Positions 5,682-27,877 of a stretch of DNA of 64,000 nucleotides are shown piece by piece. Both the position numbers and the translations under genes were made by a program. The notes under the pieces are model-generated. The model searched no databases, was not told the origin of the DNA, and saw only the letters and a program-made list of their open reading frames with translations. Each line of letters starts with the position of its first letter. Position 1 is the first letter of the stretch. The stretch lies in the NCBI RefSeq assembly GCF_947258575.1, contig NZ_CAMYIV010000004.1, forward strand, positions 1 through 64,000, written 5' to 3'. Source of the DNA: an uncultured Alcanivorax sp. (GTDB lineage Bacteria; Pseudomonadota; Gammaproteobacteria; Pseudomonadales; Alcanivoracaceae).

Positions 5682-6551
5682 ATGAGTTCTGTATCAATTC
5701 AGCCGCGCAAAGTCGCTTTTGATGTCTCGTCAGTGCCACGGCACTGGAATGGCGGTGACCCCGTGCTGACCCGCTTCTTTGATGCCCTCTCAGTGCATTT
5801 CCCGGAGGGGGAGCGCTTCTTTATCCAGTCAGTGCGTAACTTCAAGGATCAAGTGACAGATGATCAGCTGAGCGAGGATATTCGTCACTTTATTCGCCAG
5901 GAAGGTCAGCACGGGATTGTCCATGATCGTTTCAACGATGTGATGGCCAGCCAGGGCGTGGATGTGGATAAGGTCACTGCGAATCTAAGGACCTTTATTC
6001 GCACCACACAAAAGTACCTGCCGAAGAAGTATCAGCTCGCCATGACGGCGGCGTTTGAGCACTTTACGGCAACCCTGGGCGAAACCATGGTCAGCGAGAA
6101 GAGCGAGATGTTTAGCGAGGCTGACCCCGTCATGAGAGCGCTATTTCTGTGGCACGGGGTCGAAGAAGTAGAGCACAAGGCCGTGGCCTATGATCTTTAT
6201 CAGGGCGCAGCAGGTGGAGGCTACTTGACGCGCGCGTCTGCGTTGGTGGTTGCGACCCTGATGGTTCACCTTGTCGTGGCTCCAGTATTTTGGAATATGC
6301 TCAAGCTTGATGGCGTAACGCGCCAGCCTGGTGTGATTCTGCGAGGCCTGAACAAGCTTTATGGGCGAAAAGGTATTCTCACAGGCATGCTGCCTGATTT
6401 CCTCGCTTGGTTCCGCCCTGGATTTCACCCTTGGGATACCGGTATGCCTGAGAAGGTTGCCGCGTGGTTGGCGGAGTATGAGACTCATGGAGATCCGATG
6501 CGGGCATCGGAAACCATTTACGGTCCGGCTCCAGTGAGTGAGGCAGCCTGA
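5682..6551 (+). CDS. PF10118 'metal-dependent hydrolase', diiron-like
   Basis: A 289-residue protein with TTTGGAGG upstream of its ATG, first gene of operon 1. It matches the PF10118 family (HWNGGDPVLTRFFDALSVHFPEGERFF). Conserved acid/histidine residues are E44, E74-x-x-H77, E126 and E162-x-x-H165. That order (E, ExxH, E, ExxH) is the ligand pattern of ferritin-like diiron proteins, so an oxygenase or oxidase role should be considered beside the default 'hydrolase' label. A hydrophobic segment at about residues 187-210 may anchor it to the membrane. Two paralogues lie at 14183 and 26898. It overlaps the next gene by 1 bp. Confidence 0.8.
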   Translation: MSSVSIQPRKVAFDVSSVPRHWNGGDPVLTRFFDALSVHFPEGERFFIQSVRNFKDQVTDDQLSEDIRHFIRQEGQHGIVHDRFNDVMASQGVDVDKVTANLRTFIRTTQKYLPKKYQLAMTAAFEHFTATLGETMVSEKSEMFSEADPVMRALFLWHGVEEVEHKAVAYDLYQGAAGGGYLTRASALVVATLMVHLVVAPVFWNMLKLDGVTRQPGVILRGLNKLYGRKGILTGMLPDFLAWFRPGFHPWDTGMPEKVAAWLAEYETHGDPMRASETIYGPAPVSEAA

Positions 6552-7552
6552 TGCATGGAGACAAGCAGGATGTCCCCAGTACCGTCGATGTTCCTCATAC
6601 ACATCGGCCTGGGCGTCACTGTGGCAGTTCAGCTATCAGAGACCTGCTGGAGTTTCATGGGCTTAATTTGACGGAAGCTTTCTGCTTCGGGCTGGGTGCC
6701 GGGCTTGGTATTACTTATGTGGAAATACCAGGCACGGACACCCCGTTTATTGTCCATGTCCGTTCAATGGGATTTGAGGAAACGGTGTTCTCTACACTGG
6801 GCGTGCCGTTTCGCTGGGAAACTTGGCAAGATAAATGTGCTGCCGCCGATGCGCTGGATGCCCATCTTGATGCGGGGCGGCCTGCGCTTCTCTTAACTGA
6901 TATTTTTTACCTTCCTTATTTCAAGAGCAGTACACATTTCCCCGGTCACGCCATCGTCGCCTGGCAGCGAGCCGAGAAGGGCGAGACGATGCTCGTTAGC
7001 GATACCGAGCGCCCAGGGCTTTTAGAGGTGCCTCGTGACAAGTTGGTTGAAGCCAGATTCTCCTTGTCGCCACCCTTTATCCATCATGGTTCATTGTTCG
7101 CACCCGAAAGTGTTTCGGTTCAGGTGTCTGCCGATAACGTGCGCAGTGCGATTGTGAAGAATGCAGATAATCTCCTGCAAGGAAGCAGGAATCACGGTAT
7201 TCAAGCGCTAACAACTTGGATCCAGGAACTTCCTCGCTGGAAGGCAGTGGATAAATGGCAATGGTTGCTCCGTTTCGCCTATCAAGTGATCGAGAAGCGT
7301 GGAACGGGGGGCAGCGGCTTTAGAGCGATGTATTCAGAATTTCTCGATGAAGCGAGTGAAATTGTTCCTGAAATACATGAGGCAGGCTTGGTCGAGTTGA
7401 TGCGCACGAGTGCTGCGGCATGGTCCGCTCTGGCTGATTGTCTGCGAAAGGGGTCCGAAAGTGAAACATTCCCTGAAGAGGCAATAACGGACGCCATTGA
7501 ATCTGTGCGTGTTGCAGAGACCCGGTATGCGGATGCCGCTTCAACATTCTGA
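6551..7552 (+). CDS. BtrH_N / DUF4872-type protein
   Basis: A 333-residue protein whose start overlaps the previous stop (TGATG). The N-terminal half resembles BtrH_N, a papain/C39-like fold: HCGSSAIRDLLEFHG carries the candidate nucleophilic Cys, FPGHAIVAW the His, and VSDTERPG the Asp. The C-terminal half resembles DUF4872. In butirosin biosynthesis BtrH is an acyltransferase that moves an acyl group from a carrier protein. Here the setting is fatty-acyl catabolism, so an acyltransferase or thioester-cleaving role on an acyl intermediate is a reasonable inference. No signal peptide is seen, so it is probably cytosolic. Confidence 0.65.
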   Translation: MHGDKQDVPSTVDVPHTHRPGRHCGSSAIRDLLEFHGLNLTEAFCFGLGAGLGITYVEIPGTDTPFIVHVRSMGFEETVFSTLGVPFRWETWQDKCAAADALDAHLDAGRPALLLTDIFYLPYFKSSTHFPGHAIVAWQRAEKGETMLVSDTERPGLLEVPRDKLVEARFSLSPPFIHHGSLFAPESVSVQVSADNVRSAIVKNADNLLQGSRNHGIQALTTWIQELPRWKAVDKWQWLLRFAYQVIEKRGTGGSGFRAMYSEFLDEASEIVPEIHEAGLVELMRTSAAAWSALADCLRKGSESETFPEEAITDAIESVRVAETRYADAASTF

Positions 7553-7568
7553 TAAAAAGTTGCTAACT

Positions 7569-8507
7569 ATGACAGCTGAGACATCACTCCCGAGAGAACT
7601 GCTTGCCGCAAAGGCTTTTTTTGGTTCAGGGCATCCGTTGTTCAGGGTTTTTGGTATCGCAATGGATGACATTACCAAAGATGGCGCGGTAATGAGCATG
7701 CCTTGTGTGGAAGAGGTTTGTGATCAACAGGGAAAGCTTCATCGGGGAGCCATCGCTACCTTGCTTGATACGGCATGTGGTTTGGCGATTTTTGTGCGCC
7801 TCGGCGACATGCGCCCAATTGCGACAATTGACTTGCGCGTTGATTTCATCGCTAAACCCGAGGCTGGCGAAGGGGTGGCATGTAATGTCACCTGTTTTGC
7901 AGTTGAAGAAAATATTGCTTATGTCCGTGGAGAGGCATTTGGGCGTGATGGCGGCAATTTGCTGGCGTCGGTATCAGGCAGTTTTGCGATAGGAACGGCA
8001 GGCCCGTCCTTTGATCAATCTGTGAATCCTAGCAATAAGAGAGCCCCCTCCAAGAAAAAAACAATCGATGATGAAGGAATCATCAGCTTCGAAACAGAAA
8101 GGGTAACCGCTCTCTCTACTGTGGTCGGCGATGTATCACCATACGAAAAATTTCTTGGTATGACGGCTTCGGACGATAATGGCGAAGCAACCTATAAAAT
8201 GCCGTTTCGCGAGCAGCACATTGGCAACCCTCTGATCAAGACTTTTCATGGCGGTATTATCGCAAGCTTCGCGGAGCTTGTTGCTGGCGCGCACTTAACA
8301 GCGAATCAGACTGAACAAAATAAGCCAGTATGTTCAAGTATGACTCTGGATTATTTGCGCCCGGCCTTTGCGGGTACGTTGGTGGCCAAGCCGAACATTA
8401 TTCGTGAAGGAAAGCGCTTCATTGTGGTTGTTGTGGATGTGTTTCTTGATGGCGCCCAGGTTTCCCGAGGTCGCTTCATTTATAAGAGAGCCTTCGCTTC
8501 CAGCTAA
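7569..8507 (+). CDS. Tandem hotdog (PaaI-type) thioesterase
   Basis: A 312-residue protein from ATG 7569 (MTAETSLPRELL). The frame is open back to 7497, and ATGs at 7527 and 7533 would overlap the previous gene; no candidate has a strong ribosome site. It has two hotdog domains. The first (about 15-145) has HRGAIATLLDTACGLAIF and TIDLRVDFIAKPEAGEG. The second (about 190-312) has FHGGIIASFAELVAGAHL and SMTLDYLRPAFAGTLVAKP. Each has the PaaI/4HBT helix and strand pattern, so one chain could form the usual dimer. Likely role: hydrolysis of acyl-CoA made by its operon partners. Confidence 0.75.
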   Translation: MTAETSLPRELLAAKAFFGSGHPLFRVFGIAMDDITKDGAVMSMPCVEEVCDQQGKLHRGAIATLLDTACGLAIFVRLGDMRPIATIDLRVDFIAKPEAGEGVACNVTCFAVEENIAYVRGEAFGRDGGNLLASVSGSFAIGTAGPSFDQSVNPSNKRAPSKKKTIDDEGIISFETERVTALSTVVGDVSPYEKFLGMTASDDNGEATYKMPFREQHIGNPLIKTFHGGIIASFAELVAGAHLTANQTEQNKPVCSSMTLDYLRPAFAGTLVAKPNIIREGKRFIVVVVDVFLDGAQVSRGRFIYKRAFASS

Positions 8508-8565
8508 TCCAATCTATAAACAACCCTCCCCCCTTCCTTTTCTGCCTCAATAGAGGAGTTCTGTT

Positions 8566-10116
8566 ATGTATATTTCACAGACTTTGCGCCGTGCGGTTCA
8601 ATTAAACGGCCAAGGTACGGCTACCGTTTTTGCTGGTCGGCGGCAAACCTGGCGAGAGTTTGAAGACCGTATCGCATGCCTTGCTAACGGGTTGCTAAGT
8701 CTGGGCGTCAATGCGGGTGACAGGGTTGCCATACTGGCATTAAACAGCGATCGCTACCTGGAGTATTTCTATGCAGTGCCGTGGGCCGGTGCGGCAGTGA
8801 ATCCCGTCAATATTCGGCTCGCACCACCTGAAATCGCCTATACCTTGAATGACTCAGGTTCTAAAGTGCTTTTCGTTGATGACACCTTTGCAGCATTGCT
8901 GCCATCCCTACAGCCACAGCTTGAGTCTATCAAGCATGTTGTCTTCATGGGTGAGGGTGAGTGTCCACAAGGGTGTATTGATTATGAATCCCTTGTCGCC
9001 AACGCCGATCGAATCCGTGACGCCAATGCTGGCGGTGACGATCTGGCGGGGCTGTTTTATACCGGTGGTACCACTGGGCGGTCAAAAGGCGTGATGCTGA
9101 GTCATGACAACCTGGTATTCAATGCCCTAAACGTGGTTGCCGAGATGGGCTATGACAGTGACACCATATATATGCATGCCGGGCCCATGTTCCACTTGGC
9201 TGATATGGCCAGCACGTTTGCCGTGACACTGGCTGCGGGGACACATGGCATTGTTCCTCGCTTTGATGTTGATGAAGTGCTGGCTTTCATTGAGCAGGAG
9301 AAAGTCACGAACACCCTGTTGGTGCCGACCATGGTCAATCTTCTAGCCTCATCTGGGCGCATCGCCAATTACGATGTCAGCAGCATAAAACGCATGCTGT
9401 ATGGCGCCTCGCCAATGCCAGAGGCGGTATTGATTAGTGCTATGGAACAAATGCCGACAGTGTCATTTGCTCAGGGCTATGGCCAGACCGAAGCCTCCCC
9501 AATCATTACCTCACTCGGGCCAGAACATCACATTCCCGGCGGAGAAAAATTACGTAGCGCCGGTCGCGCAGCACTGGGTGTGGAGGTGGTGGTGCTTGAT
9601 GAAAATGATCAGGTGGTATCTCAAGGTACGGTTGGCGAAATATGTGCGCGGGGACCAAACGTCATGTTGGGTTACTGGGGAATGGAATCAACAACCGCTG
9701 ATACCTTGCGCAATGGTTGGCTACATACCGGCGACCTTGGCTACATGGACGAGGATGGATTTGTCTTCATCGTTGATCGAGCCAAGGACATGGTAATCAG
9801 CGGTGGAGAAAATATTTTCTCTGTTGAAGTTGAAGGTGCCATTTATAGCCATCCTGCGGTACAGGAGTGCGCGGTAATTGGTATTCCCGATGAACGCTGG
9901 GGTGAAGCTGTGCATGCAATCGTGGTGCTGCGTGAAGGAGAGCACGCCAGTGAGGCAGAGATTATCGAACATTGCCGTGAAAGAATTGCAGGTTACAAAG
10001 TGCCTCGTAGCGTTGATTTTAAGGCAGAGTCGTTGCCGGTGAGTGGGGCAGGTAAGGTGCTGAAAAACGAACTGCGAGCCCCCTTTTGGGAGAGCAACGG
10101 TAAACAGGTTAATTGA
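8566..10116 (+). CDS. Acyl-CoA synthetase (FadD13-like AMP-binding)
   Basis: A 516-residue protein with GAGGAG upstream. It shows the AMP-binding P-loop YTGGTTGRSKG (about 165-175), YGQTEASP (about 305), GWLHTGDLGYMDEDGF (adenosine/ribose contacts) and the hinge DRAKDMVISGGENIF. Length and motifs fit the FadD13 group of medium/long-chain acyl-CoA synthetases. It would activate the carboxylic acid released upstream in the pathway to its CoA ester for the two dehydrogenases encoded next. The final catalytic-lysine region GAGKVLKNELR is present, so the enzyme looks complete. Confidence 0.9.
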   Translation: MYISQTLRRAVQLNGQGTATVFAGRRQTWREFEDRIACLANGLLSLGVNAGDRVAILALNSDRYLEYFYAVPWAGAAVNPVNIRLAPPEIAYTLNDSGSKVLFVDDTFAALLPSLQPQLESIKHVVFMGEGECPQGCIDYESLVANADRIRDANAGGDDLAGLFYTGGTTGRSKGVMLSHDNLVFNALNVVAEMGYDSDTIYMHAGPMFHLADMASTFAVTLAAGTHGIVPRFDVDEVLAFIEQEKVTNTLLVPTMVNLLASSGRIANYDVSSIKRMLYGASPMPEAVLISAMEQMPTVSFAQGYGQTEASPIITSLGPEHHIPGGEKLRSAGRAALGVEVVVLDENDQVVSQGTVGEICARGPNVMLGYWGMESTTADTLRNGWLHTGDLGYMDEDGFVFIVDRAKDMVISGGENIFSVEVEGAIYSHPAVQECAVIGIPDERWGEAVHAIVVLREGEHASEAEIIEHCRERIAGYKVPRSVDFKAESLPVSGAGKVLKNELRAPFWESNGKQVN

Positions 10117-10163
10117 GTAATTGATGACCTTGTATTGCGAAATTTATTGGCTTGGAGGCTTCC

Positions 10164-11324
10164 ATGAATCTGGATTTCAGTAATGACGAAAAAGAATTTC
10201 GTAAGAGTATCCGGCAGTGGATGAAGGAAAATGTGCCTGATGATATTCGGCGCTGTACTGCCCGAGGAGCGATGCCAGACAAGAATATGCAGCAACGATG
10301 GGAGCGTTTGCTGGGCAGTCAAGGTTGGCTCACGTCTACTTGGCCAGAACAATTTGGTGGCCCAGGGTGGAGCGCAACCCAGCGGTATATTTTCGATCAG
10401 GAACGCGCCTCGGCAGGGGCTCCGCCAACAAGTCCTTTTGGTGTGGCCATGGTTGGGCCGGTGTTATATACCTTTGGTTCTGAAGCACAGAAGGAACGGT
10501 GGTTGCCCGGCATTCAGCGTGGCGAAACGCTATGGTGCCAAGGTTATTCTGAGCCCAATGCGGGCTCAGATCTGGCCTCGTTAAAAACGCGAGCCACGCG
10601 TAATGGCGACCATTATTTGGTTAATGGTCAAAAAATCTGGACGACACAGGCCCATTGGGCAGACATGATGTTTTGCTTGGTGCGAACGGATAGCACCGTG
10701 AAACAGCAGCAGGGTATTTCATTCCTGCTGATCGATATGAAAACCCCCGGGCTTGAAGTACGGCCGATTTATTCAATTGATGGGCATCATCACCTTAACG
10801 AAGTCTATTTTACCGACGTGAAAGTGCCTGTGGAAAATTTGGTGGGTCAAGAAGGAATGGGGTGGACCATTGCCAAGTTTCTTCTTACCCACGAACGCAC
10901 CACCATTGCCGGTGTGGCGGATATTCACTACGAAATCAATCGCCTTAAAAGTGCTATCGATGCGCTACCAACGGAAACAGATAAGCAGTTGGCGGTGCGT
11001 CGGTTGGCTGGCTTGGAAGTCGATCTTATGGCACTGGAATACACCAACTTTCGCACCGTTGCTGCCACAGATGAAGGCAAGCCGTTCGGCCCAGAATCGT
11101 CAGGACTGAAAATCAAAGGCACGGAACTACAGCAAAGGGTTTCCCAAGCGATGGTGGAAATCGGAGGTTTGATGTCTTTGCCATGGGATAACGAGGAGCC
11201 CATTGGGGAGCAAATTTTTAATCAGGCCAGTCGCCGCTATAACTTCCTGCGTGCGTGCACCATCTATGGTGGATCTAACGAGATCCAGAAAAACGTGTTG
11301 GCGAAGATGTTGCTCGGATTGTGA
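10164..11324 (+). CDS. Acyl-CoA dehydrogenase (first of a pair)
   Basis: A 386-residue protein. ATG 10164 was chosen for its GGAGG 5 nt upstream; an in-frame ATG at 10152 has none. It matches the long ACAD form used in terpenoid and branched-chain catabolism: CQGYSEPNAGSDLASLKT (FAD/substrate contacts) and the C-terminal RYNFLRACTIYGGSNEIQKN. It introduces the alpha-beta double bond in an acyl-CoA, passing electrons to ETF. It ends 8 bp before a second ACAD, a pairing seen where the two form a heteromeric enzyme on bulky or sterol-like acyl-CoAs; that is inference here. Confidence 0.88.
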   Translation: MNLDFSNDEKEFRKSIRQWMKENVPDDIRRCTARGAMPDKNMQQRWERLLGSQGWLTSTWPEQFGGPGWSATQRYIFDQERASAGAPPTSPFGVAMVGPVLYTFGSEAQKERWLPGIQRGETLWCQGYSEPNAGSDLASLKTRATRNGDHYLVNGQKIWTTQAHWADMMFCLVRTDSTVKQQQGISFLLIDMKTPGLEVRPIYSIDGHHHLNEVYFTDVKVPVENLVGQEGMGWTIAKFLLTHERTTIAGVADIHYEINRLKSAIDALPTETDKQLAVRRLAGLEVDLMALEYTNFRTVAATDEGKPFGPESSGLKIKGTELQQRVSQAMVEIGGLMSLPWDNEEPIGEQIFNQASRRYNFLRACTIYGGSNEIQKNVLAKMLLGL

Positions 11325-11332
11325 GGTGAAAA

Positions 11333-12448
11333 ATGGATTTCAAGTTACCCGAAAATACCACCATGATTGCGGATACCGCGCGCCGTTATCTTAAAGACAA
11401 CTATTCATTTGACACCTACATTGCACAGTTGAATGAGAGTAATCACCTTGAAGCGAATCGCTGGCAGGCCATGAATGATTTGGGTTGGTTTGGCCTTCCG
11501 TTTGCTGAATCTGTTGGAGGGTATGGCGGCTCATTGCTTGACGTGTGCGCCATTGTTCAGGAGTTAGGAGCCGCGCTTTGTCTTGACCCTTTTGTCGATT
11601 TAATTGTTTCCCCCGGCAAGTTATTGGAGTTCGCCAATACGCCAACATCCTTGGCGTTGCTTGATCGCATTATTGCTGGTGAGGCACGTGTGGCTTGCGG
11701 TCTTTATGACCGGCATGCCGGTTATCACGTGCTGAACCCTTCCTTGAGGCTAAACGGAGAACGACTTTCCGGGCAGAAGCACGTTGTGTCTGATGGTGGC
11801 GTTGCAGACGCCGTGCTCGTCTCCGCTATGTCTGGTGATGAGTTGGTCATTGTCGCGCTACCTTTCGACGCCTGTGACGTTGAAAGATATCGACTGCTCG
11901 ATGGAAGCCGTGCTGCCAGTTTGACGCTTGATGATGTGCTCATCACAGACGAAATGGTTTTGTGTCGTGGTGATGCGGCAAAGCAAGCGGTTTCTGCCTG
12001 GTTCGATTATCTGTGCGCATTGGACTGCGCACGTATGTACGGCGCCTGCCGAGAGGTGTATCAGGCCACTCTGGAATACGCTCGAACGCGTAAACAGTTT
12101 GGTAGAACGATTGGCAGTTTTCAGGTAATCCAGCACTACCTTGTTGATGCGTTTATTGATCTCCAGCAGCTGGAATCCATGCTCTTGATGGTGTCAGTAA
12201 AAGGAGAGAGCGCAAACGTCGGTGAGCGCGGGCGCGCGACAGCGGCGGCAAAGGCTTACTACGCAAACCGGGCCGTTGGTATCACTCAGCAAGGTATCCA
12301 GATCCATGGTGGCGTTGGTGTTACGGAAGAGCTGAACATTGGCCATTACTTCCGTCTGGTGACACATGCATCATTGAGTCATGGCGACCGAGAGCACCAC
12401 ATGTCACGGTTTATTCAGGCGGGGGAGAAGCAAAATGAAGTCGTTTGA
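11333..12448 (+). CDS. Acyl-CoA dehydrogenase (second of a pair)
   Basis: A 371-residue protein with GAGGTG upstream, 8 bp after its partner. It has the ACAD N-terminal helical domain, a middle beta domain and the C-terminal flavin-site helix (QQGIQIHGGVGVTEELNIGHY, about 320-340). It is shorter and more divergent than the gene before it, as expected for the second subunit of an alpha2beta2 ACAD. It overlaps the GMC oxidoreductase start by 14 bp, so it is translationally linked to it. Confidence 0.85.
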   Translation: MDFKLPENTTMIADTARRYLKDNYSFDTYIAQLNESNHLEANRWQAMNDLGWFGLPFAESVGGYGGSLLDVCAIVQELGAALCLDPFVDLIVSPGKLLEFANTPTSLALLDRIIAGEARVACGLYDRHAGYHVLNPSLRLNGERLSGQKHVVSDGGVADAVLVSAMSGDELVIVALPFDACDVERYRLLDGSRAASLTLDDVLITDEMVLCRGDAAKQAVSAWFDYLCALDCARMYGACREVYQATLEYARTRKQFGRTIGSFQVIQHYLVDAFIDLQQLESMLLMVSVKGESANVGERGRATAAAKAYYANRAVGITQQGIQIHGGVGVTEELNIGHYFRLVTHASLSHGDREHHMSRFIQAGEKQNEVV

Positions 12449-14036: not shown

Positions 14037-14070
14037 AGATCGGCTAGAGAAAAGCTATGATAAAAGGTGT

Positions 14071-14108: not shown

Positions 14109-14182
14109 TGTGTGTCTTTTAGCAAACGGTGGTGACAGAGTCGTCAACTATTCAGAGGTTCCCTAAACCCCCTTGAGCATTA

Positions 14183-15067: not shown

Positions 15068-15108
15068 ATCGCCTCCAATCAATAATGTGATAGTTAAAGA
15101 GAAAAATG

Positions 15109-18463: not shown

Positions 18464-18467
18464 TTAT

Positions 18468-18489
18468 TTATTTGGCCAAACAACCAAAT
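18468..18489 (-). promoter_or_regulatory. Shared operator upstream of operon 2
   Basis: TTATTTGG, five bases, CAACCAAAT: matches the sites at 5613 (20 of 22), 23162 (17 of 22) and 27878 (17 of 22). Read on the minus strand it follows a weak -10 (TAATAT), so it would cover the transcription start. Binding by the TetR at 28024 is inferred. Confidence 0.6.
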
Positions 18490-18577
18490 ATTAGCGTTTC
18501 TTCTACACAAAGAAAAGTCCTATTTGACGATATTGATGATCATTCAGCGGTGTGGCATACGGTGAGGACAGAAAAAA

Positions 18578-18594
18578 GCCCCCATAAAGGGGGC
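18578..18594 (-). terminator. Terminator of operon 3
   Basis: Stem GCCCCC / GGGGGC with loop ATAAA, followed on the minus strand by six T. It lies about 30 bp beyond the stop of the large lipoprotein gene. Confidence 0.85.
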
Positions 18595-18624
18595 ATGAAA
18601 GTGCGTTAGCACAAGGGGAATATA

Positions 18625-21600
18625 TTAAAAATCTTTTACCGGCAAGAAGGTAAAAGTAAGGTCTACGCCGAGGGGCGGTACCTCCAATTCGACACCGGCC
18701 AAACCTATGCCAAGCAGATCAATGTTGGCTGGTATGACGAGAGAGTCAGGGTTGCGAACTTTTAGAATCAGGCGACCATCGTCAACAAAACGTAACGGCC
18801 CTTCCAAGGTGACTCCGGTTATTTTTTTACTGCGGATGTCATGCCCAAGTTCAATGATTAGTCGTGGTTCCAGTTCTGGTGCATCCACCATGAGATCAAA
18901 CGTGGTGCTAAACCAGGGGCCATCAGGGGTTCGGGTGATATAGCCAGTAATGGGCTGATTGTTTTCATATGCCAAGCGAAGCACCAGGGGGCCGGTGTCT
19001 AACGGTATTGTGATTAATCCCAGTGCACGGGCTTCCAGAAACACACTCGTCGTTGGGAGAACAGTGGGGAAGACTTTGGCAATGACGGCGCCGGTGACTT
19101 CATTTGATGTCATTGGGTCGCTGTCGATGAGGCGTCGGTTGATGGTGACATCCGGCTCATACTGGCTTACCCCGGCTTGCAAGGCGCCTGACCCGACAAA
19201 GGCAAATTTCTTTTCCGGGCAATCGTCGCCTATACCACAGCCAATGTTGGCATGGGTTATTACTCCCGATTTGTTTTTTAGCCTAAGCTGTAGGTAGTTG
19301 GCATCGGCAATGGCACCGCCGTTACCATCGGGTACCGCACCTTGCTCGTTGTCATCGATACTAAGATTAGCGTTAACATCCGCAACCGGCAGAGAGCGTA
19401 ACGACACACGGGTGATCCGGTCCTCTTCCCCTGTTACAACGAAGTGATTGGTTAGGTCTGGACCTCCTTCTCTAAGCTCTGGGGCTGAGGAACTGGACTG
19501 AGAGATTTGACGTGTTTGTAGCGGTGCACCATCGGTTGAACATATGGCATTGGTGCCACAAACAGGCGAGTTTTGCTCGGAGTGCAGGGTGTAGCGATAA
19601 AGCTCGCCAATCTGCCACGGGTTGTTCGGGAGAAACTCTATTCGCTGGGCAAGCACCTTGAGACGACCATTGATGGGGTCCCATGCGTTATTGTTGGTAT
19701 CGAAGTGTTCAACAACAAAAGTCTGATCATTAACCGTGTCGCCGTCGATACTGCGGCTAAAGATGACTCGAATACTAAAATCCTTGAACATATTCGGTAC
19801 AGGATAGAGCGGGTCGCTATTTTTACCTCCTACACATCGGCCATTGCGCCAAGTCTCTCTTTCGCCGGTAAGATCGACATCGGTTAACGCACAGGGGTAA
19901 CCGGGAAAAACAGCAGCGACAAGTGGTGCACGTAGCTCATTGGTGCTGCCATTGGGAAGCACGAAGTCCGGTAGGCGGATGTTGAGTGTCTGGTCCTGGT
20001 TGAGCGGGTTTCCCTGCGTATCTCGGAGCAGGCTGGTGAGGGTGACCCCGACGTCTTTTCCGTGTTGAAGGATATCTCCTCCGATGATGATCGTGGCTCC
20101 ATCGTGACGTATTGGGTACGTCTTTACTACATCATCAACAGAAACCTGTACGGCACCGTCAAGGAACACCGAAGCTGGGTCTAATGGTTTGTTGAAGTTC
20201 AGGATAACGGGGTCACCAGGCCTTGCATTGGGTTGGAACGTTTCTCCCGGTGCCCAAGACTGAAGCTGCAAGGGTCGAGTGTCTTGGCTTGGGGCAGGCG
20301 CTTGGCGCTGGTTTTGATAGGCCTCCATGCGGAATGAGAGCAGACCGGATGCCTTCTCCAGGCCCAGTACATCAGGTTCAACCACACTGACCGCATCCAG
20401 TACTAGTACACCATCCTTTACAACGGCTAAACCCGCTACCTGCACATTAAGCAGGTTCTGGCTGAGAGCCGCATTGGGCTCTTGACCTGCTGCAGTCATT
20501 GCTGCGTCCATATTAAGCAGGGCATAGCGGGGAACCGATGGGGAATCACTGAATGGATTCGGGATCAGATACCCATTAGCGTCGCTGAGTATCGTGATGG
20601 TGACTTCACCGGTTTCCAGCCCGGACGGTATTTCGCCCAGTATATTGACGTCCACGGGGGTGCCTCGGAGTACGGAACCAGCGGGTACTCGCAGTGGAAC
20701 GGCATTAGGAAAGTTGGGAGCAAAAGCCAGATCTGCAGCTAGATCCCCGCTCAACCCGGTAAATGATTCATCTCCCAGCACAAAGGATTGTACTGGCACC
20801 TGATTGATCGGGTTGCCGGTTAAAGTTGACACTAGTCCAGGTTGCTCAGCTCCAAGACTGCCAACTTTTAGAACGGATGTAGCACGGGGAAGAGTGGCTT
20901 CCGGAACAAAAGTCCGATTGTACTCCGGCAACTGTTCACCGGTAGTCTGGGCCCGCAGCCCAGCAATCGTTAGTGTGTGTTCCACAGGTTTCAGATCCTG
21001 GTCAGGATCCAGTGTCAGGTAACGACCCTGCAAAAATAGTGATGCGGGAACCAACTTGCCGAGGTTGTCACGAAGTTGAACCGATCCGGTTTCGCCATAT
21101 GCTGTGCTGGTCGGATCAACCGTTTGGTTAAACGACATCCTGAAGGTGCTCATGTCGTTGGGATGGCTGGCATCATCAATCGGCTCTAGCAATGACGGTT
21201 GGTCTAGAGGAGTGGCTGAAAGCAGGGTGAAAGAGCCGCTTCCCATGGTTTGCGATGCGCCGGCTTGACTGCCTGCAGTCCGAAACCGAACGCGGGCCAC
21301 GGAGTTATCATCAATGGCTCCAAGGCCATCATCGTTGACAACCAGATGGTACGCTTCCGCCGGAGCCAGCCGCGATTGAGGATACAGGGCCAGGCCTCTG
21401 CCATTGTCTACCACCTGATAGTCAACCATGACGGTATTCCCATCAGTATCACTGACCAGCTGTAGGCGTGAGTCAATGTCATCAATAACCTCTTGCTCAA
21501 GTGCAGAGGAAAATCGCAGGATTACTGGCGCGGTAGCTGGAACCTCGGTCTGGCCAGGATAAGGGTAAGAAAAAATTAATGTCTCTGGTGTGCTCCAGGG

Positions 21601-21705
21601 ATTGCTTACATCGCCCTGATCGCCACCGCACCCGGTCAGAAGGGCTGCTATGGCGACCGCCAGACTAATCAGAAACTGGTGGATTGTGATGGGGTTATTA
21701 TTCAT
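18625..21705 (-). CDS. Large Ig-like domain lipoprotein
   Basis: A 1026-residue protein with AGGAG upstream. The N-terminus has a signal sequence ending in the lipobox LLTGC (Cys near 26), so it is lipid-anchored, probably in the outer membrane. At least two Ig-like (Big_5/SbsA type) modules follow, for example YPGQTEVPATAPVILRFSSA and DQPSLLEPIDDASHP...FRMSFNQTVDP. The rest is beta-rich with no GxSxG lipase motif. It is the second gene after fadL. VolA of Vibrio is a surface lipase lipoprotein likewise paired with FadL, so this may be a non-catalytic lipid-binding partner. That role is inference. Confidence 0.75.
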   Translation of the reverse strand: MNNNPITIHQFLISLAVAIAALLTGCGGDQGDVSNPWSTPETLIFSYPYPGQTEVPATAPVILRFSSALEQEVIDDIDSRLQLVSDTDGNTVMVDYQVVDNGRGLALYPQSRLAPAEAYHLVVNDDGLGAIDDNSVARVRFRTAGSQAGASQTMGSGSFTLLSATPLDQPSLLEPIDDASHPNDMSTFRMSFNQTVDPTSTAYGETGSVQLRDNLGKLVPASLFLQGRYLTLDPDQDLKPVEHTLTIAGLRAQTTGEQLPEYNRTFVPEATLPRATSVLKVGSLGAEQPGLVSTLTGNPINQVPVQSFVLGDESFTGLSGDLAADLAFAPNFPNAVPLRVPAGSVLRGTPVDVNILGEIPSGLETGEVTITILSDANGYLIPNPFSDSPSVPRYALLNMDAAMTAAGQEPNAALSQNLLNVQVAGLAVVKDGVLVLDAVSVVEPDVLGLEKASGLLSFRMEAYQNQRQAPAPSQDTRPLQLQSWAPGETFQPNARPGDPVILNFNKPLDPASVFLDGAVQVSVDDVVKTYPIRHDGATIIIGGDILQHGKDVGVTLTSLLRDTQGNPLNQDQTLNIRLPDFVLPNGSTNELRAPLVAAVFPGYPCALTDVDLTGERETWRNGRCVGGKNSDPLYPVPNMFKDFSIRVIFSRSIDGDTVNDQTFVVEHFDTNNNAWDPINGRLKVLAQRIEFLPNNPWQIGELYRYTLHSEQNSPVCGTNAICSTDGAPLQTRQISQSSSSAPELREGGPDLTNHFVVTGEEDRITRVSLRSLPVADVNANLSIDDNEQGAVPDGNGGAIADANYLQLRLKNKSGVITHANIGCGIGDDCPEKKFAFVGSGALQAGVSQYEPDVTINRRLIDSDPMTSNEVTGAVIAKVFPTVLPTTSVFLEARALGLITIPLDTGPLVLRLAYENNQPITGYITRTPDGPWFSTTFDLMVDAPELEPRLIIELGHDIRSKKITGVTLEGPLRFVDDGRLILKVRNPDSLVIPANIDLLGIGLAGVELEVPPLGVDLTFTFLPVKDF

Positions 21706-21739
21706 TGCTCTTCTCCTGGTATTAATCGCATGCCTGTTG

Positions 21740-23101
21740 TTAAAACTTTAGCGACAGGGAGGAAGAAAATACGTTTATTTCACCATCAGCCCTTACCGTT
21801 TCATAAGGGGCTGGATCGGTGGAAGAGTTGATGGAGGTCAATTCGAAATCAGCTTCATCCAGCATTTGATACTGGTAAGCGAAGGAGAGTTCTAATGGCA
21901 TATCTATTATTGGCGCGCTGGACAGACGGTAGCTGGCACCCAGACCGAAAACCTTTTTATCGGTGTCAAGATAGTTAACGTCCTGGGATCGGCTGGATTT
22001 TAAAGGTGAGTCCTCCAGGGCTGCGCCGGCAAAGAGTTTCATGGACTCCGACCACTGATAGCTAACGCCAATTCGGGGAATGGTGATGTCGTCAAACGCT
22101 AGATTAGCCTGATCGCGAATAGTATCGTCGGCAAACTCGCTTTCAAGCGCAGACCAATTGTGCTGCTCAATGCCTGCCGTCAATTCGAATTTGCCAACGG
22201 GAAGCAAAATGGCTGCGCCGAGAACTTCAGGTTGATAGGTATCAATTGTACTAAGCGCTAGGCTCAGGCCTGGTTCAGGGATAACTCCCGGCACAACCAC
22301 ATTGGCATCCACGGATACCTCATAGCTACTTTCCCCCCGCCAGAAAAGAGCCAGCTCCATCTTATCCATTCCAAAAGGCATGCACTCGCTTGTACCGCAA
22401 AACATTTCTCCAGAGCGGATATTGATACCTAGTGCCGGTGATAGGGATGGAGAGGCTTCCAGGGAAAGTTTTTCAGAGTCTGTGTTGCCGCCAAGGTCTG
22501 AAACTGCTTCCAGGTTGGCTTTGGCCTGGAGGGTAAGACGTGCTGATGCGCCGACGTCAACGCCCCTCAGGACGTTGCTGATAGCGCCACCAAAGGCGAG
22601 ATAAAGTGGCTGAGATTCATAGCGTAGAAACTGCCCTTTCTGGCTGGTATTGGCCTGATAGGGCAATAGGTTGGATGTGTATTGGTCTACACCCACGTTC
22701 AGGCCAAAGTAAATGGGCTTGTCGATGCTGGAAATGCCGGCGACGCGGCTTTTGAAGCCGATTAATAATAGTTCGGAACTGGTGTCAGAGAGGATATCAT
22801 TCTCTCGCTCCAAAGGGTCTGTTCCTCCCAGTGATTTGGCACGTAATTCCTGGTCGCCATACTGCACAATGACTCCCAGTTCGCCCTCCGGGGAGCGGGC
22901 CATGGCGGCCGGGTTGTAGTACACCGACCAGCTGTTGGATGCAAAAGGACTGAATGCCAAGGCAGTGCCGGCATTCATTGGGCCTAGCCCATAAGTGCTC
23001 GCTCCGTCGCCAGCACCGCCAATGGCCAAGCCGGGTGAGAGCAATGCTGTAGTGCACGTGAAGAAAAGGAGAGGTAACCGTTTTGTTTTTTTTGCAGACA
23101 T
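21740..23101 (-). CDS. OmpP1/FadL-family outer-membrane lipid transporter
   Basis: A 453-residue protein with AGGAG upstream and a signal peptide cut after about residue 28. The FadL N-terminal plug is recognisable: GLGPMNAGTALAFSPFASNS, then VYYNPAAMA. A 14-strand barrel with alternating pattern follows, ending in an aromatic strand (VFSSSLSLKF). FadL proteins let long-chain fatty acids and hydrocarbons cross the outer membrane. First gene of operon 3 with the Ig-like lipoprotein; the shared operator (23162-23183) lies 61 bp upstream. It probably imports the substrate used by operons 1, 2 and 4. Confidence 0.92.
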   Translation of the reverse strand: MSAKKTKRLPLLFFTCTTALLSPGLAIGGAGDGASTYGLGPMNAGTALAFSPFASNSWSVYYNPAAMARSPEGELGVIVQYGDQELRAKSLGGTDPLERENDILSDTSSELLLIGFKSRVAGISSIDKPIYFGLNVGVDQYTSNLLPYQANTSQKGQFLRYESQPLYLAFGGAISNVLRGVDVGASARLTLQAKANLEAVSDLGGNTDSEKLSLEASPSLSPALGINIRSGEMFCGTSECMPFGMDKMELALFWRGESSYEVSVDANVVVPGVIPEPGLSLALSTIDTYQPEVLGAAILLPVGKFELTAGIEQHNWSALESEFADDTIRDQANLAFDDITIPRIGVSYQWSESMKLFAGAALEDSPLKSSRSQDVNYLDTDKKVFGLGASYRLSSAPIIDMPLELSFAYQYQMLDEADFELTSINSSTDPAPYETVRADGEINVFSSSLSLKF

Positions 23102-23435: not shown

Positions 23436-25079
23436 TCACTGAGAATTGTTATCTGTTTGTTTTGCCGGAATGCCCTTCTCTGGCAGCTGGGGATGTGGCT
23501 CACAGGCTTGTCTCCCGCCGTCGTGTCTGCTGGGAGTGTGCCCGGCCAGTACACTGAACCGGTAGTGATCCATCGGTAAATGCTTGGCTCGCCACAGCAT
23601 TTCCAGAGAGGTAGAGGGCCGCAGCATTGGCGCGTCACCATGATGGTCGAAGTAATAACTGTTCGACAGCGCGCAGTTGTGGTTAAGGAACACGGTGTTT
23701 TGCTGGCGTTTCTGGATATTGCGGAAATACGCGTCATGGACGGACTGACGTATTTCCACTTGGCTGGCTCCACGTCGGTTGGCTTCGCGAATACAGCGAG
23801 AGAGGTGGATGGCATTCCCTTCGACCATCTTGAAGTAAGAGGTGCCGATAAGGGCATAGGGACCGAGCATGATGTAAAAGTTCGGGTAGCCCGGAATGGT
23901 CAACCCTTCATAGGCCTGGTAACGGTAGTCATGCCAGAAATCGCCCAAATTGATGTTGTTGCTGCCGATGACGTCGAACGAGGGAATATTTCCTTTCTCG
24001 AAGGTTTTGTAACCGGTGGCGAGGATCAAGGTATCGATACGCCGTGAGCGGCCGTCCTGGGTGGTGATGCCGCGGGACGTAATACGCTTGATCGGGGTCG
24101 TGACAAGCTCAACGTTGTTTCGGGCAAAGGTTCGGAAATAGTCGTTGGAAAACGTTGGCCTTTTGCACCCGAAGCCGTATTTCGGTGTCAGTGCTTGCCA
24201 CAGGTCCTGGCGGTTGGGCAGCTGTTCGCGCAGGTTGTTTATGCCCGCCTTTTCACACATGCGAACCAGCCAAGGGGCCTGCCGGTAATATATTGCGGAA
24301 AGCACCATCAGGGTTTCGCTGACGGTGTCGGTAGCGCCGCGAAGGCTGCGTTGCAAGCCCGGTACGGTTCGGAACAATACCTTGAGCCAGCCAGGCAGAG
24401 TCTGATCCGGCTTCTTCAGCACCCAGATGGGGGTGCGCTGGTAGACGTCAAGTTGACGAGCCTGGCGGGCAATTTTCGGAATCAGTTGCACTGCAGTGGC
24501 GCCAGTGCCTATTACCGCTACTCGCTTGTCACTAAGATCAAGGTCATCTGGCCAGCGTGCAGTGTGAATGACATTGCCCTGGAACGTATCAAGCCCTTCA
24601 ATATCTGGCATCTTGGGTGATATCAAACCGCCACAGGCCGAGACAATATGGCGTGCACTAAGTCGCCTGCCATCCGTAAGATCGATCAACCAGACATGGC
24701 TGTCGAGATCAAAACGGGCGCTAGCGACTTCGACACCAAAGCGAATCAGTGGGTAGATGCCATACTTGCTTGTTACCTGTCTTGTATACTGGTAAAGCTC
24801 GTTTCCCGGCGCAAAAACGCGAGACCAATTTGCGTTTTGTTCGAAGGAAAATGAATAGGTAAACGAGGTAATGTCGACAGCGATTCCCGGATAACGGTTG
24901 TCGCGCCAGGTTCCTCCCACATCCTTGCTTCGCTCAAGGATCAAGATATCTTTGATGCCATCGGCACGCAGCTGGATTGCCGCACCAATTCCAGAAATTC
25001 CCGCGCCGATGATAATGACTTCATGATCAGGAGTAACGCTGGGACGAGGGTTATGGATTGCAACAGCAGCCATATTCAT
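23436..25079 (-). CDS. Flavin-containing Baeyer-Villiger monooxygenase (second)
   Basis: A 547-residue protein with FAD motif GAGISGIG (25-32), GGTWRDNRYPGIAVDI (about 55-70), NADPH motif VIGTGATA (about 186-193) and the exact fingerprint FxGxxxHxxxWP at 166-177. It belongs to a different branch (RYPGIAVDI rather than RYPGIRSDS) from the protein at 15972, so the two probably have different substrates. It lies last in operon 4, with a 4-bp overlap to the alpha/beta hydrolase. Alternative start at the third codon (MAAVAIHN). Confidence 0.88.
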   Translation of the reverse strand: MNMAAVAIHNPRPSVTPDHEVIIIGAGISGIGAAIQLRADGIKDILILERSKDVGGTWRDNRYPGIAVDITSFTYSFSFEQNANWSRVFAPGNELYQYTRQVTSKYGIYPLIRFGVEVASARFDLDSHVWLIDLTDGRRLSARHIVSACGGLISPKMPDIEGLDTFQGNVIHTARWPDDLDLSDKRVAVIGTGATAVQLIPKIARQARQLDVYQRTPIWVLKKPDQTLPGWLKVLFRTVPGLQRSLRGATDTVSETLMVLSAIYYRQAPWLVRMCEKAGINNLREQLPNRQDLWQALTPKYGFGCKRPTFSNDYFRTFARNNVELVTTPIKRITSRGITTQDGRSRRIDTLILATGYKTFEKGNIPSFDVIGSNNINLGDFWHDYRYQAYEGLTIPGYPNFYIMLGPYALIGTSYFKMVEGNAIHLSRCIREANRRGASQVEIRQSVHDAYFRNIQKRQQNTVFLNHNCALSNSYYFDHHGDAPMLRPSTSLEMLWRAKHLPMDHYRFSVLAGHTPSRHDGGRQACEPHPQLPEKGIPAKQTDNNSQ

Positions 25080-26035
25080 GATGCAACCTCAACTATGGCG
25101 CTATCGCTAGCATTGACCGTTTGGGATGGGGCTTTGCCGACGTTATTGCTGGTCAGATACTTTCCCAGAATTCGGACGATGGTAGGGAAGTCCTGCTTTG
25201 CCTCTGGTAGCAAAAAGGTGAATACGGGCCACACGTGCGGCATATCATCGCGCTCCAGAACCTGCACGGGCACCCCCGCATCTCGCGCGCATTGTGCTGC
25301 TGCATGGGTATCGTCGCGCAGACACTCTTCGCTACTGACAGTGAAAAGTAGAGGGGGCAAGCCGGTGAAATCCGCGGTGATTGGTGAGGCATACGGGTGA
25401 GCGGGGTCCGCGCCGGCCAGATAGATATCCGTTGCCACCTCAATCATGCCATGGGAAAGCATGGTATCGCTGTCGCTATTCGCCTGTCTGGACATCAGGG
25501 TGCCTCGCGCATCCGATGCCGGCGAAATGGCGAGGGCGCAAGCCGGCATTTTCAGCAGCTGATCACGGGCACGCAGCAATGTGACTAACGTCAGGTTGCC
25601 TCCCGCAGAGTCTCCCGCAATGACCACAGGGCGAGGGTCTGCGATCAGTTCACGATACACATTAAAGGCGTCATCCGTTGCTGCCGGGAAGGGGTGCTCA
25701 GGGGCTAGTCGGTAATCCGGAAGAAAGACCCGCGCATTCAGGGCGTGAGCCAAACGGCCACAAAAGTGGTGATAGGTATCAAGCCGCCCGCCGATGAAGG
25801 CGCCACCATGCAGGTAGAGTATGGTGATTTGTGGGTCTGCGGTGCCTAGCCAGTGGCCAGCTATTCCTGCAACCTTGCCTCGCTTGAGTCGCACTCCGCG
25901 TGGCAGCAGAGAGGGGGCCAAAGGCGCGTTCATCACCCTGCGAAGATGTCTTACCAGTTTGTCCGGGTCGCGTATATCACGCTTCATGCCGGCGCGAAAA
26001 AGTAGCTTCAAAATTGTTGTAGGAATGGAGGCCAT
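25076..26035 (-). CDS. HSL-type alpha/beta hydrolase/esterase
   Basis: A 319-residue protein with AAGGA upstream of ATG 26035. It has the hormone-sensitive-lipase oxyanion motif LYLHGGAFIGG (73-83), DYRLAPEHPFPAA, nucleophile motif GDSAGGN (Ser143) and a late His in DDMPHVWPVF. This is the LipR/HSL family, which fits the mymA-like gene set (monooxygenase, LipR, SDR). Suggested role: cleavage of the ester formed by the overlapping monooxygenase gene. Confidence 0.9.
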   Translation of the reverse strand: MASIPTTILKLLFRAGMKRDIRDPDKLVRHLRRVMNAPLAPSLLPRGVRLKRGKVAGIAGHWLGTADPQITILYLHGGAFIGGRLDTYHHFCGRLAHALNARVFLPDYRLAPEHPFPAATDDAFNVYRELIADPRPVVIAGDSAGGNLTLVTLLRARDQLLKMPACALAISPASDARGTLMSRQANSDSDTMLSHGMIEVATDIYLAGADPAHPYASPITADFTGLPPLLFTVSSEECLRDDTHAAAQCARDAGVPVQVLERDDMPHVWPVFTFLLPEAKQDFPTIVRILGKYLTSNNVGKAPSQTVNASDSAIVEVAS

Positions 26036-26073
26036 ATTGAATTCCTTGCGTGTTCCGTTTCCTCAAATGCGAT

Positions 26074-26901
26074 TTAATCAGCCAGCATTCTGTAAGCTTC
26101 GCCAATCGCGCGGGCGTATAGTCGTGGCGTCAGGCGTTTCAACCGCCAGGCAAGCCGGCCGTCAATTTGTGGCAGCATGTAAAGCTCACCTCGATCAAGG
26201 GCACTGAGGGTCTGTCGGGCCACCTGGTCGGCGTTGGTGAGGGCATAGCGGGTCATCGCTGAACGGGCAAAGTCACGGCGACGTTCAGGCAGGCGCCCAT
26301 TCTCGACGATATTGGTCGGGACCACGGTTGGGCACAGGGCCGTGATTTTTACGCCGGTTCCGGTCAGTTCAGAAGACAGCGTTTCGGACAGGGCCAGTAC
26401 CCCTGCCTTGGTGACGTTGTAGGCGGCCATTTCCGGGGCGGACCCGAATGCGGCAGCAGAGGCCACATTGATGATGCCTCCATAGCCCAGATCGCGAAGC
26501 TGAGGGGCAAAATAATGGCAGCCGTGAATAACTCCCCATAGATTGACGTTCATGCACCAGTGCCAATCTTCAAGTGACACCTCGCCGATTGGGCCACCGA
26601 GGCCGACGCCGGCGTTGTTGATTACCAGGGTTACCGGCCTGCCGAGCAAAGGCTCGGCATTTTCCGCCAGGTATGCCATCTGTTTTTCATCGCCGACATC
26701 ACACCCCAGGGCTACCGCGTGAGTACCGAGTGCTCGCAGGCTGATCGCCACCTGTTCGGCGCGCTCTTCATTGATATCGACACACAGTACCGAACCGCCT
26801 CGACGGGCAACTTCGTAAGCAAAGCTACGACCGATGCCGCTACCCGCCCCGGTGATGACAGCTGCCGCCTGAGTTGACGGGTGCAAGGGTTTCTTTTTCA
26901 T
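26074..26901 (-). CDS. Short-chain dehydrogenase/reductase (second)
   Basis: A 275-residue protein from ATG 26901 (MKKKPLHPST), chosen because it overlaps the upstream stop as ATGA with a G-rich ribosome site; the frame opens at 26913. It has cofactor motif TGAGSGIG, NNAGVGLGG and active site SAAAFGSAPEMAAYNVTK. Paralogue of the product at 15109, with the same neighbour set. A SadH-like role in oxidising a secondary alcohol to a ketone is inferred from context. Confidence 0.87.
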   Translation of the reverse strand: MKKKPLHPSTQAAAVITGAGSGIGRSFAYEVARRGGSVLCVDINEERAEQVAISLRALGTHAVALGCDVGDEKQMAYLAENAEPLLGRPVTLVINNAGVGLGGPIGEVSLEDWHWCMNVNLWGVIHGCHYFAPQLRDLGYGGIINVASAAAFGSAPEMAAYNVTKAGVLALSETLSSELTGTGVKITALCPTVVPTNIVENGRLPERRRDFARSAMTRYALTNADQVARQTLSALDRGELYMLPQIDGRLAWRLKRLTPRLYARAIGEAYRMLAD

Positions 26902-27842
26902 GCCTGCCCCCATGCGGGTTCAGGTTGTGGCGTTTCGAATGTACCGTGTACATTGTTGGCTCGGTGGTCTCTGAGCGCTTGATAGGCCTTATGAGGGTCG
27001 CCAGTTCTTTCGTAGGCGCGTTTCCAGATCCGGATTACATCACGGTTATCGTCATCCCACGGGTGGAAAGTGGGGGAGAAATAGGGGGGCACGCCAGCGA
27101 GTACCTTGGAAAGAATGCCGGGACGCCAGAACAGGACTTTGGTCATTTTGGCGGCGGACCACAAATTCAGAATTTGACGATCCTTGTAGAGCAGATAGGT
27201 CTGGTTGCCGATCATAATGGGGAAGCCCAGGGCAATGGCCAGTAGCATGCCACTGATACGCAGTCGGTAACTGCGGTAGCCACCACCACTGGCATCGACG
27301 AAGACGTCATAACTGACGCTCTTGTGCTCGGTTTCTTCGACAAAGTGCCAGTAGAGCATGGCACGCAAATCCGGGTGGGTTTCGTCAAACAGCTCCGGGT
27401 GCTCAAGCAGTACCGAGGAAATAATGGCCGTGAAATGTTCAAACGCCGCTGCGATGGAGCTCTGCATATCGTCACTGAGGCGGTGTTGGAGTTGCTTACG
27501 GATCAGCTTGAACACGCCTTCAACCTTGTCGATGGGAACCCCGTGTTGCACGCCGATGGCGTTCATTTCATCGTGCTCACGAGCATGAATGCGCTCCTGG
27601 CGAATGAATTCTTTAGCTGCGTTCAGCACTTCTGGATCGTCAAGCTTGCCAAGCTGCCGTCTTGCAGAATTCATCACCCAGCGTTCACCGTCGGGGACGG
27701 CGGCGAGAATGGCATTCATCCAGTGAGTGGACCACGGGTCGTTGCGAAACCAGTGGCGAGCCACGTTTTCGATGTTCATGGGAAAGTGAATGTCACGGGT
27801 TACAACCTCGTCGTAACCAATCTTGCGGTTTGCCAGAGCCAT
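26898..27842 (-). CDS. PF10118 'metal-dependent hydrolase', diiron-like (third copy)
   Basis: A 314-residue protein from ATG 27842 (MALANRKIGYDEV; GGGAG upstream). The frame opens at 27893, but that stretch would run through the operator. Ligand-like residues: E53 (DGERW), E83-x-x-H86 (QERIHAREHD), E135 (FEHFTA) and E170-x-x-H173 (EETEHKSVSYD). A hydrophobic helix lies at about 200-222 and the family C-terminal motif is FHPWDDD. First gene of operon 4. Same alternatives as the other two copies. Confidence 0.8.
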   Translation of the reverse strand: MALANRKIGYDEVVTRDIHFPMNIENVARHWFRNDPWSTHWMNAILAAVPDGERWVMNSARRQLGKLDDPEVLNAAKEFIRQERIHAREHDEMNAIGVQHGVPIDKVEGVFKLIRKQLQHRLSDDMQSSIAAAFEHFTAIISSVLLEHPELFDETHPDLRAMLYWHFVEETEHKSVSYDVFVDASGGGYRSYRLRISGMLLAIALGFPIMIGNQTYLLYKDRQILNLWSAAKMTKVLFWRPGILSKVLAGVPPYFSPTFHPWDDDNRDVIRIWKRAYERTGDPHKAYQALRDHRANNVHGTFETPQPEPAWGQA

Positions 27843-27877
27843 TGGATCGCTCCCAAGTAAAGTGCATTCATTGGACT

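Follow-up and report, generated by a model that had tools for sequence, protein, structure and literature searches.

Results

Two operons in a stretch of DNA from an uncultured Alcanivorax sp. may cleave aliphatic chains at an internal carbon, with proteins of the Pfam family PF10118 as candidate makers of the alcohol required; this is our best explanation of the locus as a whole, held with slightly more doubt than conviction. The window, that is, the whole stretch analyzed, comprises bases 1-64,000 of contig C4 from a genome of 3.5 Mb in 13 contigs. Open reading frame (ORF) and family searches placed a PF10118 protein, a short-chain dehydrogenase/reductase (SDR), a flavoprotein monooxygenase (FMO) and an esterase in each of operon 2 (14183-18463) and operon 4 (23436-27893), where a preliminary description, made from the sequence alone, had located these four families.

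Two separately assembled operons

Operon 2 is transcribed from the minus strand in the order ABH1, FMO1, SDR1, PF10118_B, with gaps of -4, -4 and 26 bases, and operon 4, also on the minus strand, in the order PF10118_C, SDR2, HSL, FMO2, with gaps of -16, 38 and -4 bases. Between the two operons, the PF10118 proteins are 28%, the SDRs 33% and the FMOs 28% identical, and ABH1 and HSL gave no BLASTP match at E ≤ 10; the best Pfam families of these esterases are Abhydrolase_1 and Abhydrolase_3, respectively, both of the alpha/beta-hydrolase fold. The cofactor and active-site motifs are intact in SDR1 and SDR2, and the GxSxG serine is present in both esterases. Operons 2 and 4 are separately assembled sets holding the same enzyme classes, because their gene orders are opposite, their esterase families differ, their shared proteins are only 28-33% identical and their PF10118 proteins fall into separate clades. 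A simple tandem duplication was ruled out by the reversed order and by the esterases from different families, as the preliminary description ("not a simple tandem copy") had anticipated.

Predicted fold and invariant residues of PF10118 proteins

PF10118_A (operon 1), PF10118_B and PF10118_C matched the Pfam model Metal_hydrol with 286.5, 277.9 and 248.9 bits, all above the cut-off of 33.2. Two structural models of PF10118 proteins had predicted local distance difference test (pLDDT) values of 93.5 and 90.6; the alignments behind them (48 and 35 rows) overlap widely in their members. In a structure comparison (VIA), the leading rows were CmlI (14.4, root mean square deviation 4.0, 220 aligned; 14.1), R2 proteins and AurF (13.4; 13.3), tied within about 1 Z unit, and the 50 rows listed for each model were dinuclear-metal types as judged by their titles. 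Residues E64, E94, H97, E145, H176, E180 and H183 are invariant in 48/48 members, and in 93/93 when the most divergent members are added. With the predicted helices, this ligand-like set (E / ExxH / E / HxxxExxH) matches the ferritin-like dinuclear carboxylate type, a four-helix bundle carrying E, ExxH, E and ExxH. PF10118 proteins are likely dinuclear O2-activating enzymes; they would contain metal and may act as hydroxylases. Because fold and invariant residues favor a dinuclear-metal oxygenase or oxidase, the proposed first step by PF10118 is plausible, and we tentatively suggest, with some doubt, that PF10118 is the first hydroxylase of these modules.

In their predicted fold and their invariant E/ExxH/E/HxxxExxH residues, PF10118 proteins resemble the di-iron N-oxygenases AurF and CmlI, whereas they score below the AurF Pfam cut-off and occur in another gene context, presumably with another substrate. 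For the AurF model (PF11583; cut-off 29.6), PF10118_B reached 15.6 bits (E 0.009), 8 of the 48 PF10118 members matched at E ≤ 1 (best 0.0011), and in three whole genomes PF10118 genes appeared at 1.7e-5, 1.6e-4 and 6.2e-4, all below the cut-off. When solved structures were searched with the PF10118 alignment, three matches were obtained (E 0.58-0.85), which led no further. A profile comparison with AurF-like proteins was discarded as proof (probability 0.45%).

Proposed pathway

An internal carbon of an aliphatic chain would be hydroxylated by PF10118 or by another hydroxylase, SDR would oxidize the secondary alcohol to a ketone, FMO1 or FMO2, as AlmA- or MymA-like Baeyer-Villiger monooxygenases (BVMOs), would insert oxygen to turn the ketone into an ester, and ABH1 or HSL would release alcohol and acid from that ester. 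The products would feed the GMC protein, the ligase and the acyl-CoA dehydrogenases of the nearby operon 1, the acid passing to acyl-CoA metabolism. PF10118 would fill the C-H activation step that is seemingly beyond the ability of the flavoprotein, or else it may oxidize an early intermediate. The ketone-to-ester-to-alcohol module is probable, and long or branched alkanes are a somewhat favored substrate; the direction of the SDR step, the hydrocarbon substrate and the reactions themselves are inferred. The grouping of PF10118_A with a likely alcohol-oxidizing GMC protein in operon 1 fits an alcohol maker without being proof of one.

The order of chemistry in the preliminary description (secondary alcohol, ketone, ester, alcohol plus acid) agrees with the enzyme classes, both flavoproteins being of the BVMO type. 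Its reading as subterminal oxidation holds up as far as enzyme classes, the position of AlmA and flanking alkane-type genes (AupA-like FadL, CypR and P450) are concerned, while substrate, activity and hydroxylation by PF10118 remain predicted.

FMO1, FMO2 and the AlmA question

Both type I BVMO fingerprints, [AG]GxWxxxx[FY]P[GM]xxxD and FxGxxxHxxxW[PD], are present in FMO1 and FMO2. By sequence, the closest solved structures of FMO1 were a 'putative monooxygenase', then cyclohexanone monooxygenases and OTEMO, ahead of FMOs, and those of FMO2 were phenylacetone, cyclohexanone and steroid monooxygenases. The best NCBIfam model for FMO2 was pentalenolactone synthase, with 229.6 bits versus a cut-off of 1100.

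In the source lineage, FMO1 very probably represents AlmA, as judged by 73% identity, shared gene order, tag spacing and the agreement of a 62.4% identity with a printed value of 63%. The relative with the 73% identical FMO1, probably A. dieselolei B5, carries operon 1, followed on the opposite strand by PF10118_B, SDR1, FMO1, ABH1, Big_5 and FadL. AlmA is B5T_02052 (PMC6850023) and ompT is B5T_02055 (PMC5174103); this spacing by tag number equals that between FMO1 and the gene for the FadL-type channel, three genes away. The relative's FMO1 is 62.4% identical to the second AlmA-like gene of the source genome; for ABO_0282 versus B5T_02052, 63% is given in print (PMC6850023). Contig C5 holds two more AlmA-like genes, with 62% and 56% identity to FMO1. 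FMO1 has the BVMO fingerprints and the three-gene spacing to a FadL-type channel in common with AlmA of Acinetobacter and Alcanivorax/Alloalcanivorax; in contrast, a literature report of PF10118 together with AlmA was not found, and the match to B5T_02052, made via tag spacing, is a probable one.

Recombinant AlmA from Acinetobacter vivianii is reported to be inactive with octacosane and to convert 2-decanone and 2-dodecanone to acetate esters (PMC12388405). The A. baylyi AlmA has been assigned to the BVMOs (Yin 2024, as told in PMC12449030 and PMC11784139), and PMC12449030, citing Yin 2024, gives ketone activity and an absence of alkane activity for Acinetobacter AlmA. In an opposing report, purified A. 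dieselolei AlmA hydroxylates alkanes (as told in PMC12449030 and PMC11784139).

Conservation and linkage across genomes

Loci elsewhere were gathered by similarity to PF10118_B (65 loci) and mostly by similarity to the HSL esterase (20 stretches), so that the counts tell how well gene order is kept rather than how often it occurs in nature. FMO-SDR-PF10118, on the same strand with gaps of at most 400 bases, occurs in 34/65 loci, among them Alcanivorax, Alloalcanivorax, gamma proteobacterium HdN1 and metagenome-assembled genomes titled Moraxellaceae, and an ABH gene precedes this trio in 30/65. Minicystis rosea has a looser version (FMO1-like 54%, SDR1-like 46%, and PF10118 38% after 1.4 kb). 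The full PF10118-SDR-HSL-FMO order of operon 4 was found in 10 other genomes from four families (codes f1, f72, f23, f68), 8 of them from the 20 mostly HSL-gathered stretches, 12 of which did not show the full set; at one locus (L223) it is kept at 42-61% protein identity. Gene order kept over such sequence distances points to selection. Both orders recur in other genomes.

The source genome contains 13 PF10118 genes, more than the preliminary description covered. For 4 of the 13, the start is no more than 3 kb from an FMO gene, where 0.26 would be expected (binomial p 1e-4); this count used 12 of 14 FMO rows, leaving out one weak row and one that was a repeat match to a gene already counted. 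The 4 include a third PF10118-SDR-FMO set on another contig (L042:12572-16026). Shortly beyond it, an ORF that looks ferritin-like by eye (L042:16789-17805) stands directly ahead of a BVMO-type gene (17876-19429), with a divergent TetR-like gene. The same genome has a second mymA-like arrangement (L049:7629-10766), a BVMO-HSL-SDR set with a divergent AraC-like ORF and no PF10118 nearby.

Genomes of the genus hold 8-15 PF10118 copies each (17 genomes, source genome counted), and PF10118 is present in 23 of 150 evenly sampled Pseudomonadota genomes (source genome counted). Gene context was read for all 48 above-cut-off PF10118 genes in the other 22 genomes (46 loci). An SDR match (≥35% identity) lies within 9 kb of 13/48, at up to 2 kb for 9, at 2-4.5 kb for 2 and at 4.5-9 kb for 2 (p 4e-4 versus an even spread, relatedness uncorrected), and an FMO match was found within the stretch for 7/48. 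The SDR link of PF10118 is real, yet most PF10118 genes occur in other settings. An AraC-family match lies within 2 kb of 11/48 (e.g., L128-L130, L134-L136, L142), a frequent neighbor that points to a dedicated inducer.

An FMO1 homologue (E ≤ 1e-60) is encoded in 82 of 194 genomes from the order and PF10118 in 67 (66 above cut-off), with 44 genomes encoding the two together (Fisher p 1.7e-6, phylogeny uncorrected). That PF10118 is required by every AlmA-type enzyme was ruled out, since 38 of the 82 are without it. In a 93-row PF10118 tree, PF10118_B and PF10118_C are in different starred clades, and the label FMO+SDR, given to the 15 rows with both genes no more than 3 kb away, changes at least 8 times, 7 changes being forced by starred branches, so that the link was gained or lost several times; the tree is a quick search with long-branch warnings and mixes similarity-gathered loci with the even sample.

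Neighboring genes

The features of the locus are compiled in Table 1.

Table 1. Features annotated in the window, with the evidence for each.
Feature	Position	Strand	Evidence
PF10118_A, first gene of operon 1	5682..6551	+	Pfam Metal_hydrol 286.5 bits, cut-off 33.2
BtrH_N/DUF4872 protein (DarH/BtrH-like acyltransferase family)	6551..7552	+	Pfam PF14399, PF16169; NCBIfam DarH below cut-off
Double hotdog thioesterase	7497..8507	+	two 4HBT stretches, single ORF
Acyl-CoA synthetase (AMP-binding)	8566..10116	+	family search
Acyl-CoA dehydrogenase 1	10152..11324	+	best NCBIfam PimC, below cut-off
Acyl-CoA dehydrogenase 2	11333..12448	+	best NCBIfam PimD, below cut-off
GMC oxidoreductase, operon 1	12381..14036	+	family search; 48% identical (BLASTP) to P450-side GMC 31612..33267
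PF10118_B, predicted ferritin-like dinuclear-metal protein, last gene of operon 2	14183..15082	-	Pfam Metal_hydrol 277.9 bits
SDR1	15109..15975	-	Pfam adh_short; motifs TGAGSGIG, NNAG, YNAAK
FMO1, AlmA-type flavoprotein	15972..17498	-	BVMO fingerprints GGTWDLFRYPGIRSD and FGGEVIHPQHWP
ABH1, alpha/beta hydrolase, first gene of operon 2	17495..18463	-	GASMG nucleophile motif
Big_5 protein, 1026 aa, lipobox-like LTGC	18625..21705	-	Big_5 match; 34-base gap to FadL gene
FadL-family channel	21740..23101	-	sole NCBIfam match AupA, 380.2 bits, below cut-off 840
FMO2, BVMO-type monooxygenase, last gene of operon 4	23436..25079	-	fingerprints GGTWRDNRYPGIAVD and FQGNVIHTARWP
HSL (hormone-sensitive-lipase type) esterase, operon 4	25076..26035	-	GDSAG and HGG motifs; by sequence closest solved structure EstD11
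SDR2	26074..26913	-	family search, motifs
PF10118_C, predicted dinuclear-metal protein, first gene of operon 4	26898..27893	-	later ATG start at about 27842 likely
TetR-family regulator, divergent from operon 4	28024..28629	+	family search
CypR, AraC-family regulator	28699..29742	-	NCBIfam NF053784, 587.6 bits, above cut-off 500
Small ORF, 2Fe-2S ferredoxin-like as judged by eye	29865..30185	+	reading by eye
Cytochrome P450, probably CYP153	30200..31612	+	Pfam p450; 84% to P450 of syntenic relative
GMC oxidoreductase adjoining P450	31612..33267	+	BLASTP 48% to 12381..14036
Reductase-like ORF, putative ferredoxin reductase	33239..34597	+	by eye and position after GMC

Operon 1 encodes the GMC protein, the acyl-CoA synthetase and the two acyl-CoA dehydrogenases that the preliminary description had assigned to it, as ORF and family searches confirmed. 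A BtrH/DarH-like acyltransferase-family gene (6551-7552) sits within this seemingly catabolic operon, and the hotdog thioesterase domains fused in the ORF at 7497-8507 are two separate ORFs in the loci of many relatives. At L140:4097-14495, operon 1 genes (PF10118_A, BtrH, ligase, acyl-CoA dehydrogenases) directly follow a P450-GMC pair. To the left of the locus (263-4719), genes appear mobile-element-like by eye (YqaJ-like nuclease, DUF932-like, RadC-like).

The P450 operon next door had been called a CYP153 operon; a P450 is encoded there, and none of the family models run assigns it to CYP153, an assignment supported instead by the neighboring CypR regulator (587.6 bits) and by synteny with a related genome. 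This syntenic relative, probably A. borkumensis SK2, shares with the window the order operon 1, operon 2, Big_5, FadL, operon 4, TetR, AraC, P450, GMC and reductase-like gene, with identities of 60-93%. In print, ABO_0193 is the FadL/ompT gene (PMC5174103) and ABO_0200-0203 encode a ferredoxin, a P450, an alcohol dehydrogenase and a ferredoxin reductase (PMC6850023); in the window, six genes lie between the FadL gene and the ferredoxin-like ORF, a spacing that fits these tags. In L074-L077, L079 and L081, an AraC gene stands between the P450 operon and ABH1-FMO1-SDR1-PF10118 (the almA operon).

As in the alkane uptake operon AupA/AupB (PMC5989066), a FadL-type channel is followed here, 34 bases on, by a large partner gene; in contrast, this FadL reaches 380 bits versus an AupA cut-off of 840, and the partner is a putative AupB counterpart by position. 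AupA being its only NCBIfam match, the channel fits the uptake function proposed for it in the preliminary description. The partner, the Big_5 protein, is probably a lipoprotein that works together with this channel. AlmR, with an Ig-like domain and a place near almA, is the reported almA repressor in A. dieselolei (PMC11784139), and the Big_5 protein beside FadL/almA (18625-21705 in the window; L121:9849-12926) may be AlmR. Since its start resembles a lipoprotein signal (LTGC) and Big_5 is the only domain found in it, the protein could instead be a membrane partner of the AupB kind rather than a transcription factor.

Discussion

Two points weigh against PF10118 as the alcohol maker: its fold and profile scores are weak, each taken alone, and many genomes with an FMO1 homologue (38/82) do without it. 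The second point also suits a doubtful but serious alternative, according to which PF10118 is a dinuclear-metal oxidase or oxygenase acting on another intermediate (aldehyde, acid or acyl thioester), with alcohols or ketones coming from AlkB, P450 or oxidized oil. PF10118_A heads an acyl-CoA operon that has neither SDR nor FMO, this operon comes after P450 and GMC genes in L140, and the AraC gene between the P450 and almA operons (L074-L077, L079, L081) can be read in the same direction; however, PF10118 shares an operon with SDR twice in the window and has an SDR within 2 kb in 9/48 cases, which suits an alcohol maker. If the clustering merely reflected shared regulation of unrelated lipid genes instead of one pathway, the abundance of PF10118 in the genus and the AraC genes near 11/48 PF10118 genes would be accounted for, but this is quite unlikely, given that genes overlap and that order is kept at 42-61% identity in L223.

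It is unlikely, too, that the substrates are not alkanes but ketones of the cyclic, terpenoid or steroid-like kind, or else waxes and storage lipids: the structures nearest to FMO2 and its best NCBIfam model, far below cut-off, would agree with such substrates, whereas FMO1 groups with AlmA, alkane-type genes flank the locus, and characterized AlmA acts on 2-ketones (PMC12388405). Highly improbable is a PF10118 that works as the hydrolase of its database name ('metal-dependent hydrolase') and merely assists ester cleavage; the name alone speaks for it, while each operon already has an esterase and the fold and invariant residues resemble those of dinuclear-iron proteins.

By gene families, compared by eye, operon 4 resembles the mymA operon of Mycobacterium tuberculosis, which comprises a BVMO, a LipR-type esterase, an SDR, fadD13 and VirS; BVMO, SDR and an esterase are shared, whereas operon 4 has PF10118, which mymA is not known to contain. 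The BVMO of mymA is described in PMC9044951. In the sad cluster of Acinetobacter NyZ410, the BVMO SadD and the esterases SadA and SadB convert 2-ketones to acetate and primary alcohols (as told in PMC12753306). A BVMO and an esterase for subterminal oxidation are common to both systems, compared by description only, but each operon here has one esterase, plus SDR and PF10118. In the long-chain subterminal route of T. oleivorans, a BVMO and an esterase are induced on n-C28, and no specific subterminal hydroxylase was identified there (PMC6304351); judged by tags, its genes are apart, in contrast to those described here.

A subterminal route with BVMO and esterases is already known (PMC12753306, PMC12388405, PMC6304351), and the locus lies within a studied Alcanivorax region. 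What is new is the dinuclear-iron reading of PF10118 and its recurrent place beside SDR and BVMO genes; neither was found in our literature search, which in part covered the best-ranked papers and which papers naming the protein otherwise could escape. The accession turned up in one paper, as a protease candidate within a correlation network (PMC8960859).

According to PMC12388405, little has been documented on hydroxylases of the subterminal route in Acinetobacter. AlmA has been listed as a long-chain alkane hydroxylase, yet newer reports give the Acinetobacter enzyme ketone, not alkane, activity, and a conserved dinuclear-iron oxygenase-like gene beside almA is a concrete candidate for the first hydroxylation, found in a genus that includes a laboratory model strain. 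More speculatively, PF10118 may be a large AurF/CmlI-like dinuclear-iron hydroxylase family that opens hydrocarbon or lipid chains internally, the missing subterminal alkane hydroxylase in AlmA and HSL operons, captured more than once independently by SDR-BVMO-esterase sets. If the proposed role is true, the PF10118 family gains a testable function.

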